Shown: piece after piece, positions 1-4,940 of the stretch
How the letters are laid out: the number at the start of each line of letters is the position of its first letter
Position numbering within the stretch: the stretch's first letter is position 1
Source of the DNA: Anoxynatronum buryatiense
GTDB lineage: Bacteria; Bacillota; Clostridia; Peptostreptococcales; Tindalliaceae
NCBI RefSeq assembly: GCF_900182905.1
Contig: NZ_FXUF01000004.1
Coordinates: 1-64,000, forward strand
Direction of reading: 5' to 3'
DNA: 64,000 nucleotides
Translations under genes and position numbers: made by a program
The notes under the pieces: model-generated
Databases searched by the model: none
Told to the model about the DNA's origin: nothing
What the model saw: only the letters and a program-made list of their open reading frames with translations

Positions 1-10
1 CGGGGCCTCT

Positions 11-71
11 ATGCGAGCCGGGCGCCTTGTAAAGACAAAGCAAAGGACGCTTTGCCGGCACCCTCTCGCAT
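11..71. other. long imperfect inverted repeat
   Basis: The arms atgcgagccgggcgcc (11-26) and ggcaccctctcgcat (57-71) are near reverse complements, and a second small stem (gcaaag/ctttgc) sits between them. The transcript of either strand would fold. No reading frame or known RNA family was recognised here. It lies outside the repeat array of the adjacent transposon. The 404 bases before the first gene contain only this structure and the 24-bp repeat array. Confidence 0.5.
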
Positions 72-164
72 TTGGCTGATCAAAGGCCTTTGTTTTTCAA
101 TAATCTTGTGTTTGAAAATGCCAAAGAGCAAGATCTTGAACGACTTAACCAAATACCGATTTTA

Positions 165-300
165 GAAAAAAGTGCTTACCGTCATGGTGAAAAAACTGCT
201 TACCGACTCCAGGCAAAAACTGCTTACCGGCCGTCGGAAAAAACTCCTTACTGCGTGACGAAAGAACTGCTTACCATAACTGTGAAAAAAGTGCTTGACA
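165..300 (+). repeat. array of six 24-bp-spaced repeats (transposon end)
   Basis: Six copies of a 16-17 bp motif with consensus gaaaaaactgcttaccg begin at 165, 189, 213, 237, 260 and 284, so they recur every 23-24 bp, about two helical turns. The last copy ends in gcttgaca. The spacers are only 7-8 bp and differ in sequence. Regular arrays like this are typical of transposase-binding sites at the ends of Tn7/Mu/Tn5053-type elements. The array lies 105 bp beyond the stop codon of the AAA+ gene. Assignment as the transposase-binding end is inference. Confidence 0.7.
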
Positions 301-404
301 TTCACACCAGGCGCTCGGGTTGCTCCTCAGCAGAGCCCTATCCTCCCGGAAAGGAGAAAACCGGTCAAAGTCAAAAGAAGGTTTTTCGCTTTCAGGCATC
401 CGCG

Positions 405-1214
405 TTATGCCACCTCACCACTGATGACCAGGCTCACCATGTGTTCATCAATGATGGGTTTCTGGGTTTGAGCGCCATAGATAAGGGCGTTGGTGGCCGC
501 TTTGTTGATCAGCCGGGCAATACCACCAGAGTAAGCGTAAATGGCATCCAGTGCTTTTTCTGAAAAGATGTCCCTGTCAGTACCCGCTGCCAGAAGATGT
601 TGTCTCAGGTAAGCTTCCGTCTGGGATCTGTCCAGGGGTGACAGGCGGCAGACCATGTCAATACGCTGGCGGATGGCCGCAAAGCTTTGAAGTTTCAGCC
701 GGTCCCACAGTTCTGACTGACCGGCCAGGATCAGGGTCATGGGGCTCATGGAGTCCATCTGGAAGTTCAGGAGAAACCGAACTTCTTCCAGCATCTCCCT
801 GTCCAACAGATGCGCTTCATCCACCACAACCACCGGCCTGATGTGATGAATCCCCCGCATCAGTTCAATCTCCCGGTGTAGCTGTCGTTTGGCATCACCC
901 CGGTAAAACTTGGCTTCACAACCAATCTGTTCCAAAAGGCCCTTGTAGAAATGCCGGGGTGTCAGCTTGGAATCTGATAGATAAAAGACCTGGTATTTGC
1001 TGGGGGGCAGTTGCTCCTTAAACCAGCGCAGTGTGGTGGTTTTACCAGTCCCTGCTTCCCCGGTGAAGACGGCAAAAAGCTGGCGCTGGGCGGCGTAGTG
1101 CAGCCGGCCGGCAATTTCTTCCAGTACCGGTGGGGTGTACAAATCTGTGGCATCAATGGTCCGGGAAAAAGGTGTTTTAACACAGCCGTAAAAGGTTTCA
1201 TACATCAGGCTCAC
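405..1214 (-). CDS. AAA+ ATPase, ExeA/TniB-like transposition partner
   Basis: The 269-residue protein has a Walker A motif GEAGTGKT at residues 52-59 and a Walker B VVVVDEAHLL at about 128-137, followed by a helical lid ending near residue 265. This is the ExeA/GspA-type AAA+ fold that works as a target selector or activator for DDE transposases (IstB, MuB, TniB and TnsC are functional analogues). Its start overlaps the end of the transposase gene by 17 bp, implying translational coupling. It is expected to bind DNA and ATP and to direct transposase to the target. The family call is firm; the role in transposition rests on context. Confidence 0.85.
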   Translation of the reverse strand: MSLMYETFYGCVKTPFSRTIDATDLYTPPVLEEIAGRLHYAAQRQLFAVFTGEAGTGKTTTLRWFKEQLPPSKYQVFYLSDSKLTPRHFYKGLLEQIGCEAKFYRGDAKRQLHREIELMRGIHHIRPVVVVDEAHLLDREMLEEVRFLLNFQMDSMSPMTLILAGQSELWDRLKLQSFAAIRQRIDMVCRLSPLDRSQTEAYLRQHLLAAGTDRDIFSEKALDAIYAYSGGIARLINKAATNALIYGAQTQKPIIDEHMVSLVISGEVA

Positions 1215-2526
1215 CTGCTTTCCGGTAACTGATCACCATGGGACCCTGACGCTGCTGGTGTTTTTTCTGGGCCGCCTTTAACAGACGGGACTCTGTGGCG
1301 GGCACTTTGGTTAAGTGTTCCGGCAGAGTCGGTCTTGTGCCGGCCCAGGGACCGATGGTTCTCTCCTTTGCCTGTACTGGTTGAAGGTTACCTGCCTGTA
1401 CCTGAATAACTGAAGTATCTGCCGGGTCGTAGATCACGGTGACCTTCATGCCCAGGTAAGACAGCCCCACTTCGTAGAACTTGCCTTGAAAACTGATGCA
1501 GCCGGTTTTGTCCACCTTCCGTTCTTCCCGGTGGAGAAAAGCATCATGGATTTCCTTGGGGTCCAGGTACCGTATGGGCCGGGTGTCTGACTGAAAGGCA
1601 ACGTACGGGCTCTTGTTGTCTTTCAAGGCACTGTGAGGTTTATGCTGGTAGCATTCTGTCAGCCAGACCTGGTACAGGTGGTTCAGGTCTTCCAGGCTGT
1701 CCAGGTTTTCCAGTCTGGATTCTGTGAGAAACCGGTCCACCTGGTGGTGAAACACTTCTGATTTGCCTTTTGACTCAGGGCTGTATGGTTTTGTGTACAT
1801 CAGTTTGATGCCAAGGAGCCCGGTGGTGGTTTGCATCCATTTGTTCCGGTATTCAGACCCGTTGTCGAAGTAGACTGCGTCCGGAATACCGTGTTTTAGA
1901 AGGGATTGGCGGAAACTGTCAATGACGATGGGGCTGCCCAGGGTGGGATAAAACTCACTGTGCAGGATCAGCCGGGTAGCGTCATCAATCCAGGTGACCA
2001 GGAACACTTGCTGGGGTTTAGCTCCCAGGCCCATGGGCAGGAACGGTCCATACTTGATGTCTGACTGCCACAGGCAGTTTCGGTGTGGTTTCACAAAACG
2101 CCGGGCAGTGCTACCGGTTTGATGGTACTGTTTCATCTGCCGGCTGCTGTAGCCTCGCTGGGCCAGTTTGTCCTGAAGGGTGCTGCGTTTGATCTGGCCG
2201 GGCTGGATTTTTCCTTCCCATTCCAGGATTTGGATCAGCTGTGACACACTTCTGGTGGGCACTTGGCGTCTTAAGAGGATGGCTTCCTGGAGGATTTCTT
2301 CCGGGACAGCGTCACTGGTAATCATCCTTTTCTTTACAGACAACAGACCGTCGTAGCCTGCCTGCTGGTACCGGGCAAGGTATCGGCGCAGGGTGCGTTC
2401 TGACAGGCCGGTTTCCTGGCTGATCTGATCTTTCAGTTTCTGGTAACTGGCTTTGTCCAGGCCAGGGGCCAAGAGGGGTGCGATGAGTTTCATCCGTTCC
2501 TGGGCTTGTTGTTTTTCCTTGGTCAT
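1198..2526 (-). CDS. DDE transposase/integrase (rve fold)
   Basis: The 442-residue protein begins with helix-turn-helix DNA-binding segments (residues about 15-130). A retroviral-integrase core follows, with D156 in LWQSDIKYG, D221 in YFDNGSEY and E257 in SPESKGKSE, an exact DD(35)E spacing. A C-terminal beta-barrel like that of Mu and IS481-type transposases spans about residues 325-400. An AAAGGAAG ribosome site lies before the ATG. The gene sits between the zinc-protein gene (46-bp gap) and the overlapping AAA+ gene. All catalytic residues are present, so it looks functional. Confidence 0.92.
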   Translation of the reverse strand: MTKEKQQAQERMKLIAPLLAPGLDKASYQKLKDQISQETGLSERTLRRYLARYQQAGYDGLLSVKKRMITSDAVPEEILQEAILLRRQVPTRSVSQLIQILEWEGKIQPGQIKRSTLQDKLAQRGYSSRQMKQYHQTGSTARRFVKPHRNCLWQSDIKYGPFLPMGLGAKPQQVFLVTWIDDATRLILHSEFYPTLGSPIVIDSFRQSLLKHGIPDAVYFDNGSEYRNKWMQTTTGLLGIKLMYTKPYSPESKGKSEVFHHQVDRFLTESRLENLDSLEDLNHLYQVWLTECYQHKPHSALKDNKSPYVAFQSDTRPIRYLDPKEIHDAFLHREERKVDKTGCISFQGKFYEVGLSYLGMKVTVIYDPADTSVIQVQAGNLQPVQAKERTIGPWAGTRPTLPEHLTKVPATESRLLKAAQKKHQQRQGPMVISYRKAGEPDV

Positions 2527-2572
2527 GACTATCTTCCTTTCTACAGGGGATTGTCATCACCATACACTGGCT

Positions 2573-3094
2573 TTACCCGGCAGAAAAGGCCGAACGGGTC
2601 TGTACCCAAAGATTCAGTTTTACTGTCTGGTGGACAACGCGGCTTAGCCATCCGGTTGTCTCGCCTACGGACTGCCGGAGCCGTTGGAGTGGGGTTCCGG
2701 GAAAGGGAGTTTTTTCCATTGCGTTGTCTTCTGTCATGGCGTTCAGCACACCCAGCAGATGGCAGGTGATGCCGTTAAACCAGGCTTTCCAGCGTCTGAT
2801 GGTGGATTCTTCCACAGCGACTTCGGTGTCATCCAGAACAGCTTCGATGCTTTCTGCTGGATGTCGTTTGTAGGGAATCACCGTGCCGGGCAGCTCGTGA
2901 TGGATTCTACCACAGCTTGAACATTTGAGGCGTCTGATTCGAAAGGTTTTGCTCCGACTTGTGTCGAAGGCTTCAATGACTTTGCGGTTACGGCTTCCGA
3001 TGACGCTGCAGTGTTCACACTGACAGCTGGGACAACAAAATGTCTCCAAACTCCTAACAAAAAACACCTGTTTCAGGGTTTTCAAACAACTCAT
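2573..3094 (-). CDS. DUF6431-like zinc-binding transposon protein
   Basis: The 173-residue protein has two CPSC/CSSC-type cysteine pairs (C21-C24 and C58-C61) suggesting a zinc ribbon, then a basic segment and a helix-turn-helix-like stretch (VEESTIRRWKAWF, residues about 93-105). It matches my recollection of DUF6431 proteins, which accompany DDE/ExeA-type elements in Clostridia. By position it could play a DNA-binding, target-choice role comparable to TniQ, but that is speculation. No good ribosome site precedes the ATG; the leader instead holds a large inverted repeat (3100-3210). Confidence 0.7.
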   Translation of the reverse strand: MSCLKTLKQVFFVRSLETFCCPSCQCEHCSVIGSRNRKVIEAFDTSRSKTFRIRRLKCSSCGRIHHELPGTVIPYKRHPAESIEAVLDDTEVAVEESTIRRWKAWFNGITCHLLGVLNAMTEDNAMEKTPFPGTPLQRLRQSVGETTGWLSRVVHQTVKLNLWVQTRSAFSAG

Positions 3095-3099
3095 ATTTT

Positions 3100-3210
3100 G
3101 ATAGAATGACCATAAGAGTTGTGTGAGGCGCCCCTGAGACTTGCTGTCGGAAGCAGTCTATCAAACAGGGGCGTCTTTCCTTTCTCAAGATTTGTTATGG
3201 TCATTATATC
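3100..3210. repeat. nested inverted repeat before the zinc-protein gene
   Basis: The outer arms gatagaatgaccataa (3100-3115) and ttatggtcattatatc (3195-3210) match in 15 of 16 positions as an inverted repeat. Nested inside are cgcccctg (3129-3136) and caggggcg (3166-3173). The right arm contains a TATAAT-like box on the minus strand. It may be a promoter/operator for the transposon genes or part of the transposon end. Function not known. Confidence 0.6.
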
Positions 3211-3236
3211 CGGCAATTTTCGGACAGGCAATAGCA

Positions 3237-4940
3237 TCAGCAATTGGTCAGTTTGTTTCGGCTTAAACAATACAGGGTGTCTACGCCTTTGGCGGCATCC
3301 TCGTTATATTTTTTCATTGTTTCAGCCAGCTGACGGGGATTCATATTCAGCTGTTCAGCAAGAGCTTCAAGGGTATCGGCTTTCACCACTTGGCCGGCGG
3401 CCACCATTTGATCAACCATTTCGGTAAGCTTGTTCCAGCCAAAGTCCATGGGGGTGATTTCGGGCATGGGCCCCATGGCAATTTTATCCAGCATGCCGGC
3501 GGCTCGGGCTCCTTGTGTTTCAAGCAGGTTTAAGAGCGCTTCATTATACAGAAAATAGGCATAGTTTCCCTGTGACATAACGGCGTTGCCTGACAGGGCG
3601 CGGTCATAAACGATGTCTTCGTTGGCGAATCGAACACCGCTGGCATTGATCCAGGGGATGATGGGCATGTAGGCAACAGAATTGGTTGCTTGATAGCGTT
3701 CCATGAACTCGTAGTCACCTTCAACGGCATCACCACCGGCGACGGCGAAGGTGTGGGTTACCATGGCCGATAATCCTCGTGTTGCAGCGCCGGCTTCCAC
3801 AGCCATTTGAATACCGTCACCCACATTGGAGTTATACCCGGAGGCATTGACCTGAACGCCTTTTAAGGCTTCAGTTACCATGTCTGTATTTCCTACGAAA
3901 CCACCAGTGGCGATGACGACTGATTTGGCAGATATGTGCAGGGTGGAACCGTCTTTTGCACTGGCAATCACGCCGGTGACCTGGCGGCTGTCTGTCATCA
4001 ACTGAATGGCAGGGGTTTCATAATAGATGGTGGCGCCATGATCTGCCGCTATCTTGTCCAGCATGGCTGTCAGTTGAGCAGATGTTTTGGTATGGTCATT
4101 GTATTTATGATACCCATTGGTTCCTTCTGCATGGGATTGCTGAACAGCTGCCTTGGTTTTTTGAAATTCGATTCCCCGGGCTTCCATCCAGTCGGCAGTT
4201 GTATGGGAAAGTTCGAGAAATTGCTTGACCAATGTGGCATCAGCCAACCAATCCATTTCATCCATCCATTTTTCGAAGATATAATCGGTATCCACAGGTT
4301 CGTGGCCCAACGCTCTTGCCTGAGCGCTGTCTGCGGCAAAAAAGCCGCCGCCCATGGCCGTTGTGCCACCGGCAACAGCGGCTTTTTCAAGAACGATAAC
4401 CTTCGCGCCATTTTCGGCGGCGGTGACTGCTGCTGATGTGCCGGCACCACCGGTGCCAATCACCACCACATCGGCTTCAAGTTCAACGATTTGGCCTTCA
4501 TTTTCCCTGGCGACAGCGGTCTTTAAGGCTTCGAGGTCGCCGCCTGCTTCAACCAGTGCTTGTTCCACCGCCGTTAGAAAACCTGTTGATGTCAGGGTGG
4601 CACCGGTGACGGCATCAATACCAATGGACTGGTGATGGATAATATCATTTGTCAAGCTGTCCATGGCCACATCACCCAGACCTGCGGTTTCAGAGGATGT
4701 CAGCACAGCGATCGTTTCGATGGAGGAATCACTGACGGTGACTTCCACCTTGATGGGCCCGTTCATGCCTGGTGCTTCAGCGGTATAGGTGCCAGCATTA
4801 AAAGTAATCTCGCCAGCAGGATCAATGGCATCAGTGCCGGTAGTGGCTTGATCTTGTGGAGATTCGCTTGTACCGGCACAGCCTGCCAGTGAAAAAACGA
4901 ACAGCAGCACCAGTAAAGCAGTTAAGAACTTTTTCTTCAT
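3237..4940 (-). pseudogene. surface FMN/FAD reductase, 3' end lost to the transposon
   Basis: The 567-codon frame starts with a lipoprotein signal (lipobox LAGC, Cys21), then an FMN-binding domain with the flavin-attachment motif DAVTGAT (109-115), then a FAD-binding fumarate-reductase-type domain with GTGGAG (162-167). Relative to the two intact paralogues in this window it lacks the last part, including the GGL and GLYAAGE-like FAD-closing segments. Similarity stops after GVDTLY, and the last dozen residues come from transposon DNA. The FAD domain is therefore incomplete and the product is probably inactive. A strong AGGAGGTG site precedes the ATG, and a MerR-type promoter lies at 4970-5000. 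Confidence 0.85.

Follow-up and report, generated by a model that had tools for sequence, protein, structure and literature searches.

Introduction

Among described mobile elements, the closest counterpart of the locus analyzed here is IS5376 (PDB 8B4H, 8Q4D and 8Q3W; PMC10122671, PMC11208146). According to the relevant passages of the IS21 structure paper (PMC10122671), IstA of IS5376 assembles as a tetramer on a pair of ends, each of which must have two complete repeats, the 23-bp spacing of the repeats could favor supercoiled end DNA, and the role of the extra repeats in Tn7 is left open. The same passages describe IS21 as having its -10 box on the left and its -35 box on the right, with tandem copies giving a relatively strong promoter, and an excerpt of another report describes fusion promoters of this sort for several families, IS21 included (PMC9330008). 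IstA has no activity unless IstB is present, and it may be held in check partly by multiple terminal repeats, as stated in the corresponding sections of PMC11208146. Two further systems, Tn7 and phage Mu, also combine an ATPase partner with several transposase sites at each end, as outlined in passages of PMC10122671. These elements use other proteins, whereas the elements discussed here, compared with them by description only, have similar counts of evenly spaced sites at both ends.

We analyzed a window of 64,000 nucleotides, the first 64 kb of contig C4 of the Anoxynatronum buryatiense genome. An array of six repeats close to its left edge is, in our view very probably, the right end region of an insertion sequence of the IS21 family (window 1–306, plus strand), with six predicted IstA sites that face outward and the element ending at position 306. 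Multiple terminal repeats are already part of the description of the IS21 family, and we therefore make no claim of a first report for such arrays.

Results

A regular array of six units

The array consists of six copies of a 15-bp unit with the consensus AAAAAACTGCTTACC, all on the plus strand, which start at window positions 166, 190, 214, 238, 261 and 285. Successive spacings across 166–299 are 24, 24, 24, 23 and 24 bp, as expected from the original prediction of six repeats with a 23–24 bp period. From the innermost outward, the predicted IstA sites are unit 1 (AAAAAAGTGCTTACC, 166–180), unit 2 (AAAAAACTGCTTACC, 190–204), unit 3 (CAAAAACTGCTTACC, 214–228), unit 4 (AAAAAACTCCTTACT, 238–252), unit 5 (AAAGAACTGCTTACC, 261–275), which would correspond to the R2 position, and the terminal unit 6 (AAAAAAGTGCTTGAC, 285–299), which would correspond to R1. 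The terminal copy indeed reads GTGCTTGACA, and unit 6 has TTGAC in place of TTACC, like the right terminal unit of the relatives described below. Scanning the whole 64-kb window at a score threshold of 12 detected no unit beyond these six, in agreement with the earlier remark that the right side (3211–3268) has no partner array. None of 100 first-order Markov shuffles of the whole window contained even two units 21–26 bp apart, compared with six in a row in the real window. The idea that the copies lie on nearly the same face of the helix did not hold: a step of 23–24 bp corresponds to 2.19–2.29 turns, i.e., a rotation of 69–103 degrees per copy (10.5 bp per turn assumed), and successive units are therefore not on one helix face.

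Limits of the inserted element

We placed the right tip at window position 306 (...TTGACATTCACA), and not at 300 as first proposed, by analogy with 17 relatives that have both ends. The tip reads TTCACA (301–306, plus strand), and the final CA is typical of IS21 ends. Since window base 1 is the edge of contig C4, the array-bearing element is cut there, and its partner array is invisible in the window because the contig begins at that base. The partner, an outward-facing array, was detected at C15:219-349, with the left tip of the element at C15:356; the supposed asymmetry of the ends thus came from an array hidden by the contig edge. A related second left-end array was present at C23:32630-32760.

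The flank beside the C15 left tip ends with CCAGGCGC, and the window reads CCAGGCGC from 307 (307–314), these being the left and right copies of an 8-bp target duplication that is single in the empty site on contig C1. When both flanks were joined on a single CCAGGCGC, they aligned to a copy of the adjacent gene-bearing element on C1 with 323/373 identities and 4 gaps, none of which was at the join. The shared CCAGGCGC and the uninterrupted C1 copy indicate that the insertion sequence entered the downstream region of the gene-bearing element, duplicating 8 bp. Judged from these alignments, the two ends of the inserted element are C15:356 and window 306.

A search of the same genome revealed that window 1–308 recurs at C11:140457-140764 with 307/308 identities and a different flank after position 308; the C11 stretch past the shared part had no match in the genome but itself. 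This second copy comprises the C23 and C11 ends, has a 6-bp duplication (CCTTTT), and an uninterrupted relative of its insertion site was found on C27 (L016:6941-6795, 89% identity). Target duplications of the IS21 family are 4–8 bp long. Those of the two copies in this genome are short too, at 8 and 6 bp for the window copy and the second copy, respectively, and an empty site was found for both; the window copy has the IS21 end layout, that is, direct repeats within each end that are inverted between ends, ~23-bp spacing and CA tips (window 166-306, C15:219-356). Comparison of other copies, which the original prediction had recommended, found the array again on C11. The 308-bp end had no blastn match in plasmid or phage records and matched two of 198 genomes, its own and one other, the latter over a stem-loop only.

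The gene-bearing element that hosts the insertion

The host of the insertion is a second mobile element (window 307–3269, minus strand), the left part of which continues on C15 to about 538–550. It encodes an AAA ATPase (405–1214), a DDE transposase (1198–2526) and a DUF6431 protein (2573–3094). The only other copy found in the genome is partial, lies on C1 and matches window 303–503 and 2344–3269; its site is uninterrupted and without the array. The proposal that the array ends an element to its left, distinct from the gene-bearing one, was thereby upheld, because the second copy on C11 has the array and the gene-bearing copy on C1 lacks it.

Additional features were observed in this region. 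The ends of the gene-bearing element carry an inverted repeat of ~30 bp (TGACCGAAAACTGCCGGA... versus TGTCCGAAAATTGCCGGA...), set back from the outer tips and located in window 3100–3269 and L015:about 460-550. A FAD-binding oxidoreductase gene (3237–4940) has apparently lost its C-terminal end to this element: its Pfam match reaches only position 344 of the 414-position profile, the reading frame enters the element by ~11 codons, ending at 3269, and the missing part was absent from the ORFs listed beside the other end on C15. In a Desulfitobacteriaceae MAG (L092:1-3724), a relative of the gene-bearing element, with DDE transposase and AAA ATPase, separates the end of istB from the right array in an IS21 element of the window type, so that the two kinds of element in the window are nested there in reverse order, with the gene-bearing relative inside the IS21 element.

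Interior of the element and a conserved stem-loop

A complete istA or istB of this type was not found in the genome, which we counted against reading the array as an IS21 end; searches with the IstB and IstA of the IS21 type on C8 recovered other IS21 elements, not the window type. As the interior of the element is absent from the assembly, its own genes have to be deduced from relatives and from a 41-codon remnant. This remnant, the first 41 codons of istA, lies beside the C23 array and has 68% identity to IstA of L059 (Claveliimonas bilis, a complete relative); the array, upstream of the remnant, points away from it. On C15, istA is replaced after about codon 9 by the L015:1-99 repeat, the end of another multi-copy insertion sequence. 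This insertion-sequence-like repeat end also occurs at five further places in the genome. The window copy is probably not autonomous.

Window 1–90 (plus strand) contains a stem-loop that recurs after istB in other IS21 elements within the genome. Its relatives were detected downstream of istB in IS21 elements of another type on C27 and C8 and in a remnant on C6, as well as in one other genome (G070), and another relative on C11 is located beside an IS3-type transposase gene. Occurrences outside the window are at L016:3795-3895, L017:6615-6703, L018:6629-6716, L021:about 1495-1577 and L013:7123-7197. The stem-loop is ~75–90 nt long and strongly conserved between otherwise different elements. 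Two of its 31 predicted pairs were changed on both sides with pairing kept, and its z-score alone was modest (-1.84). A known RNA family was considered and rejected, as Rfam gave no match at the gathering threshold in the window, nor at the place of the stem-loop in L016, L017 and L021. With the stem-loop of another IS21 type beside the array, the right end looks hybrid, a feature that the second copy shares and that we likewise counted against our interpretation. In L059 and L046, istB is followed by the array within a few dozen bases, without the stem-loop.

Relatives with the same arrays in other genomes

One pattern scan each of a collection of species genomes and of viral contigs yielded 69 loci and 1 locus, respectively. 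Arrays of at least three units were present in 55 of the 70 loci (74 arrays in total), and 15 loci had no such array. Fifty of the 74 arrays had an istA or istB match (at least 45% identity) no more than 900 bp away, and all 50 faced outward, with 24 nearest istA and 26 nearest istB. Of the other 24, 15 stood at the edge of a locus where no such gene could be reached, and 9 had none nearby; these nine were counted against our assignment of the array. Solitary arrays occurred at L093:1484-1598 and 2104-2212, L055:6910-7043, L070:1868-2025, L083:3689-3820, L094:3087-3197 and L102:5004-5090. Several of them end in normal tips and may therefore be solo ends, or else belong to passenger-carrying or non-autonomous elements.

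An istA-istB pair stood between arrays on both sides in 17 loci (with istA in pieces in L041 and L074). These loci fall into 10 IstB clusters at 90% identity and are therefore not 17 independent cases. Counted by script, their left ends had 5–7 units and their right ends 4–7, with six in 11 of the 17 right ends; L062 is truncated at its left end, and the script overlooked the last right unit of L075. Almost all unit spacings in the relatives (168/171) were 23 or 24 bp, and the element length was 2,630–2,884 bp in the 13 of 17 relatives with both flanks compared. Target duplications of at least 6 bp were found in 6 of 15 copies, namely the two described above and 4 of the 13 from other genomes; none of 210 mismatched flank pairs had one. 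Nine of the 15 copies examined had no target duplication of at least 3 bp, which again was counted against an IS21 end.

Family assignment of IstA and IstB

The IstB proteins of the relatives are clearly of the IS21 kind: those of L059 and L046 matched NF038214 with 224.8 and 235.7 bits (cut-off 200) and PF01695 with 207.3 and 220.3 (cut-off 24.1). For the corresponding IstA proteins, the best NCBIfam match was IS21, yet the scores (128.9 and 122.9) were below the curated cut-off of 160, suggesting a divergent branch, and we counted this against our assignment of the array. Their scores for the integrase core (rve; 30.2 and 32.5) were just under the cut-off of 32.6, and Mu-transpos_C_2 was above its cut-off in L059 and below it in L046. 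IstA of IS5376 was the sole PDB match for IstA of the relatives (E 2e-11 to 3e-11), and their IstB was also homologous to that of IS5376 (E 1e-37).

As far as it is described in passages of PMC10122671, IS5376 likewise has direct repeats at each end with ~23-bp spacing; it differs in having two sites per end, compared with 4–7 in the present arrays, and a target duplication of 5 bp, compared with 6 bp here (8 bp in the window copy). Its IstA has ~400 residues, versus 516–524 in L059 and L046. The IS21 elements on C8 and C27 of the same genome share with the window type the istA-istB order and short repeats near the ends, but have another repeat motif, different IstA and IstB, and the stem-loop downstream of istB. 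The C8 element has three repeats on the left and four on the right (by eye), fewer than the window type.

Deviant terminal units and a candidate junction promoter

The terminal units of the relatives differ from the internal ones. TTGAC was present in the right terminal unit of 16 of 17 relatives by script, and the true last unit of the exception, L075, also has TTGAC, versus none of 82 internal right units. Read inward, the left terminal unit was TAnnnT in 16/16 cases (L062, whose tip is cut, was excluded), compared with 3 of 89 internal left units. This arrangement resembles that given for IS21 in passages of PMC10122671, with the -35 half in the right end and the -10 half in the left. In the present genome, the left tip on C15 reads TAAGAT, and the right end in the window has TTGACA (295–300, plus strand), a candidate outward-facing -35 half of a junction promoter. 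If the ends abutted, the TTGAC and TAnnnT units would give -35 and -10 hexamers that are 15 bp plus the spacer apart. Inspection by eye revealed no -10-like hexamer at the right distance beyond window 306.

One natural right-left junction was identified in the genome that also contains L065. At L113:1340-1560, the right end of one IS21 copy is followed, after a 2-bp spacer between the tips, by the truncated left end of another, which yields TTGACA, 17 bp and TAAGAT. The left-end remnant runs into an aldo/keto reductase gene (PF00248), and the junction may therefore be the promoter of that gene. Such a junction was present in one of 20 carrier genomes and in none of the 397 genomes of a family sample, and we counted both results against our interpretation.

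Discussion

Sequence comparison establishes the extent of the element, its inverted partner array, the target duplications, two empty sites and the linkage to istA-istB elsewhere, and it supports the original view of the array as a multi-site transposon end. That the array instead terminates the gene-bearing element, which encodes the DUF6431 protein, the DDE transposase and the AAA ATPase, as a set of TnsB- or TniA-like sites, is very unlikely. Gene-bearing elements of the Tn7/Tn5053-like kind do have several transposase sites per end, and the array adjoins the genes of this one; however, on C1 the gene-bearing element runs through the site uninterrupted and without an array, the array is duplicated elsewhere without the gene-bearing element, and the target duplication stands between the two. 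We consider the possibility ruled out by the empty site on C1. Even less credible is that the repeats are protein-coding, with 8-residue repeats such as EKTAYR in a 163-codon ORF (72–563), and not a DNA-binding array. Although this ORF is open and the 24-bp period holds one frame over the first four units, the 23-bp step breaks the frame within the array, and the coding repeats were rejected on this ground; moreover, the ORF has no Pfam match and crosses the element boundary, and relatives mix 23- and 24-bp steps.

A much more serious alternative, to which we assign a substantial but less than even probability, is a hybrid or passenger-carrying element, not a standard IS21, that has ends of this IS21 type around a different interior and in which the array would work alike and the transposase would come from elsewhere. 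In its favor, the array of both copies adjoins a stem-loop that belongs to another IS21 type; istA is interrupted near codon 9 on C15 by the end of another insertion sequence and loses its homology at codon 41 on C23; searches of the genome found neither gene of this type in full; and in L092 a foreign element separates istB from the right array. On the other hand, assembly collapse alone can explain the missing inside, and C23 retains the start of istA in the standard place.

For the array as an IS21 end, the following mechanism can be proposed. IstA would bind the units, the two nearest the tip would act in the catalytic synapse like R1 and R2 in IS5376, and the inner units may seat further IstA subunits. 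These extra subunits could stabilize or restrain the paired-end complex and cover the promoter halves. Once the ends abut, in a circle or a tandem copy, the outward -35 box of the deviant last unit would pair with the left terminal TAnnnT, and strong transposase expression would be expected only then.

The element belongs to the known IS21 family and has more sites per end (4–7) than the studied examples (two). Within the literature titles and abstract starts surveyed, a scope without ISfinder, no IS21 end arrays of such length were described. Tentatively, and with rather less than even confidence, we suggest that in an IS21 branch found here in Clostridia, Coriobacteria and Spirochaetes the sites were multiplied to about six at both ends, with only the two outermost specialized, as the right -35 half and the left -10 half. 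With further IstA subunits seated on the inner copies, the wrapped end complex would be longer than the two-site tetramer known for IS21, and a dose-sensitive switch would silence the element for as long as its ends are apart. At the locus itself, the ends of two nested mobile elements are now settled, and the one-sided look of the array is due to a contig edge, not to biology. Natural IS21 ends with 4–7 regular sites are useful for asking what role transposase sites play beyond the first two.
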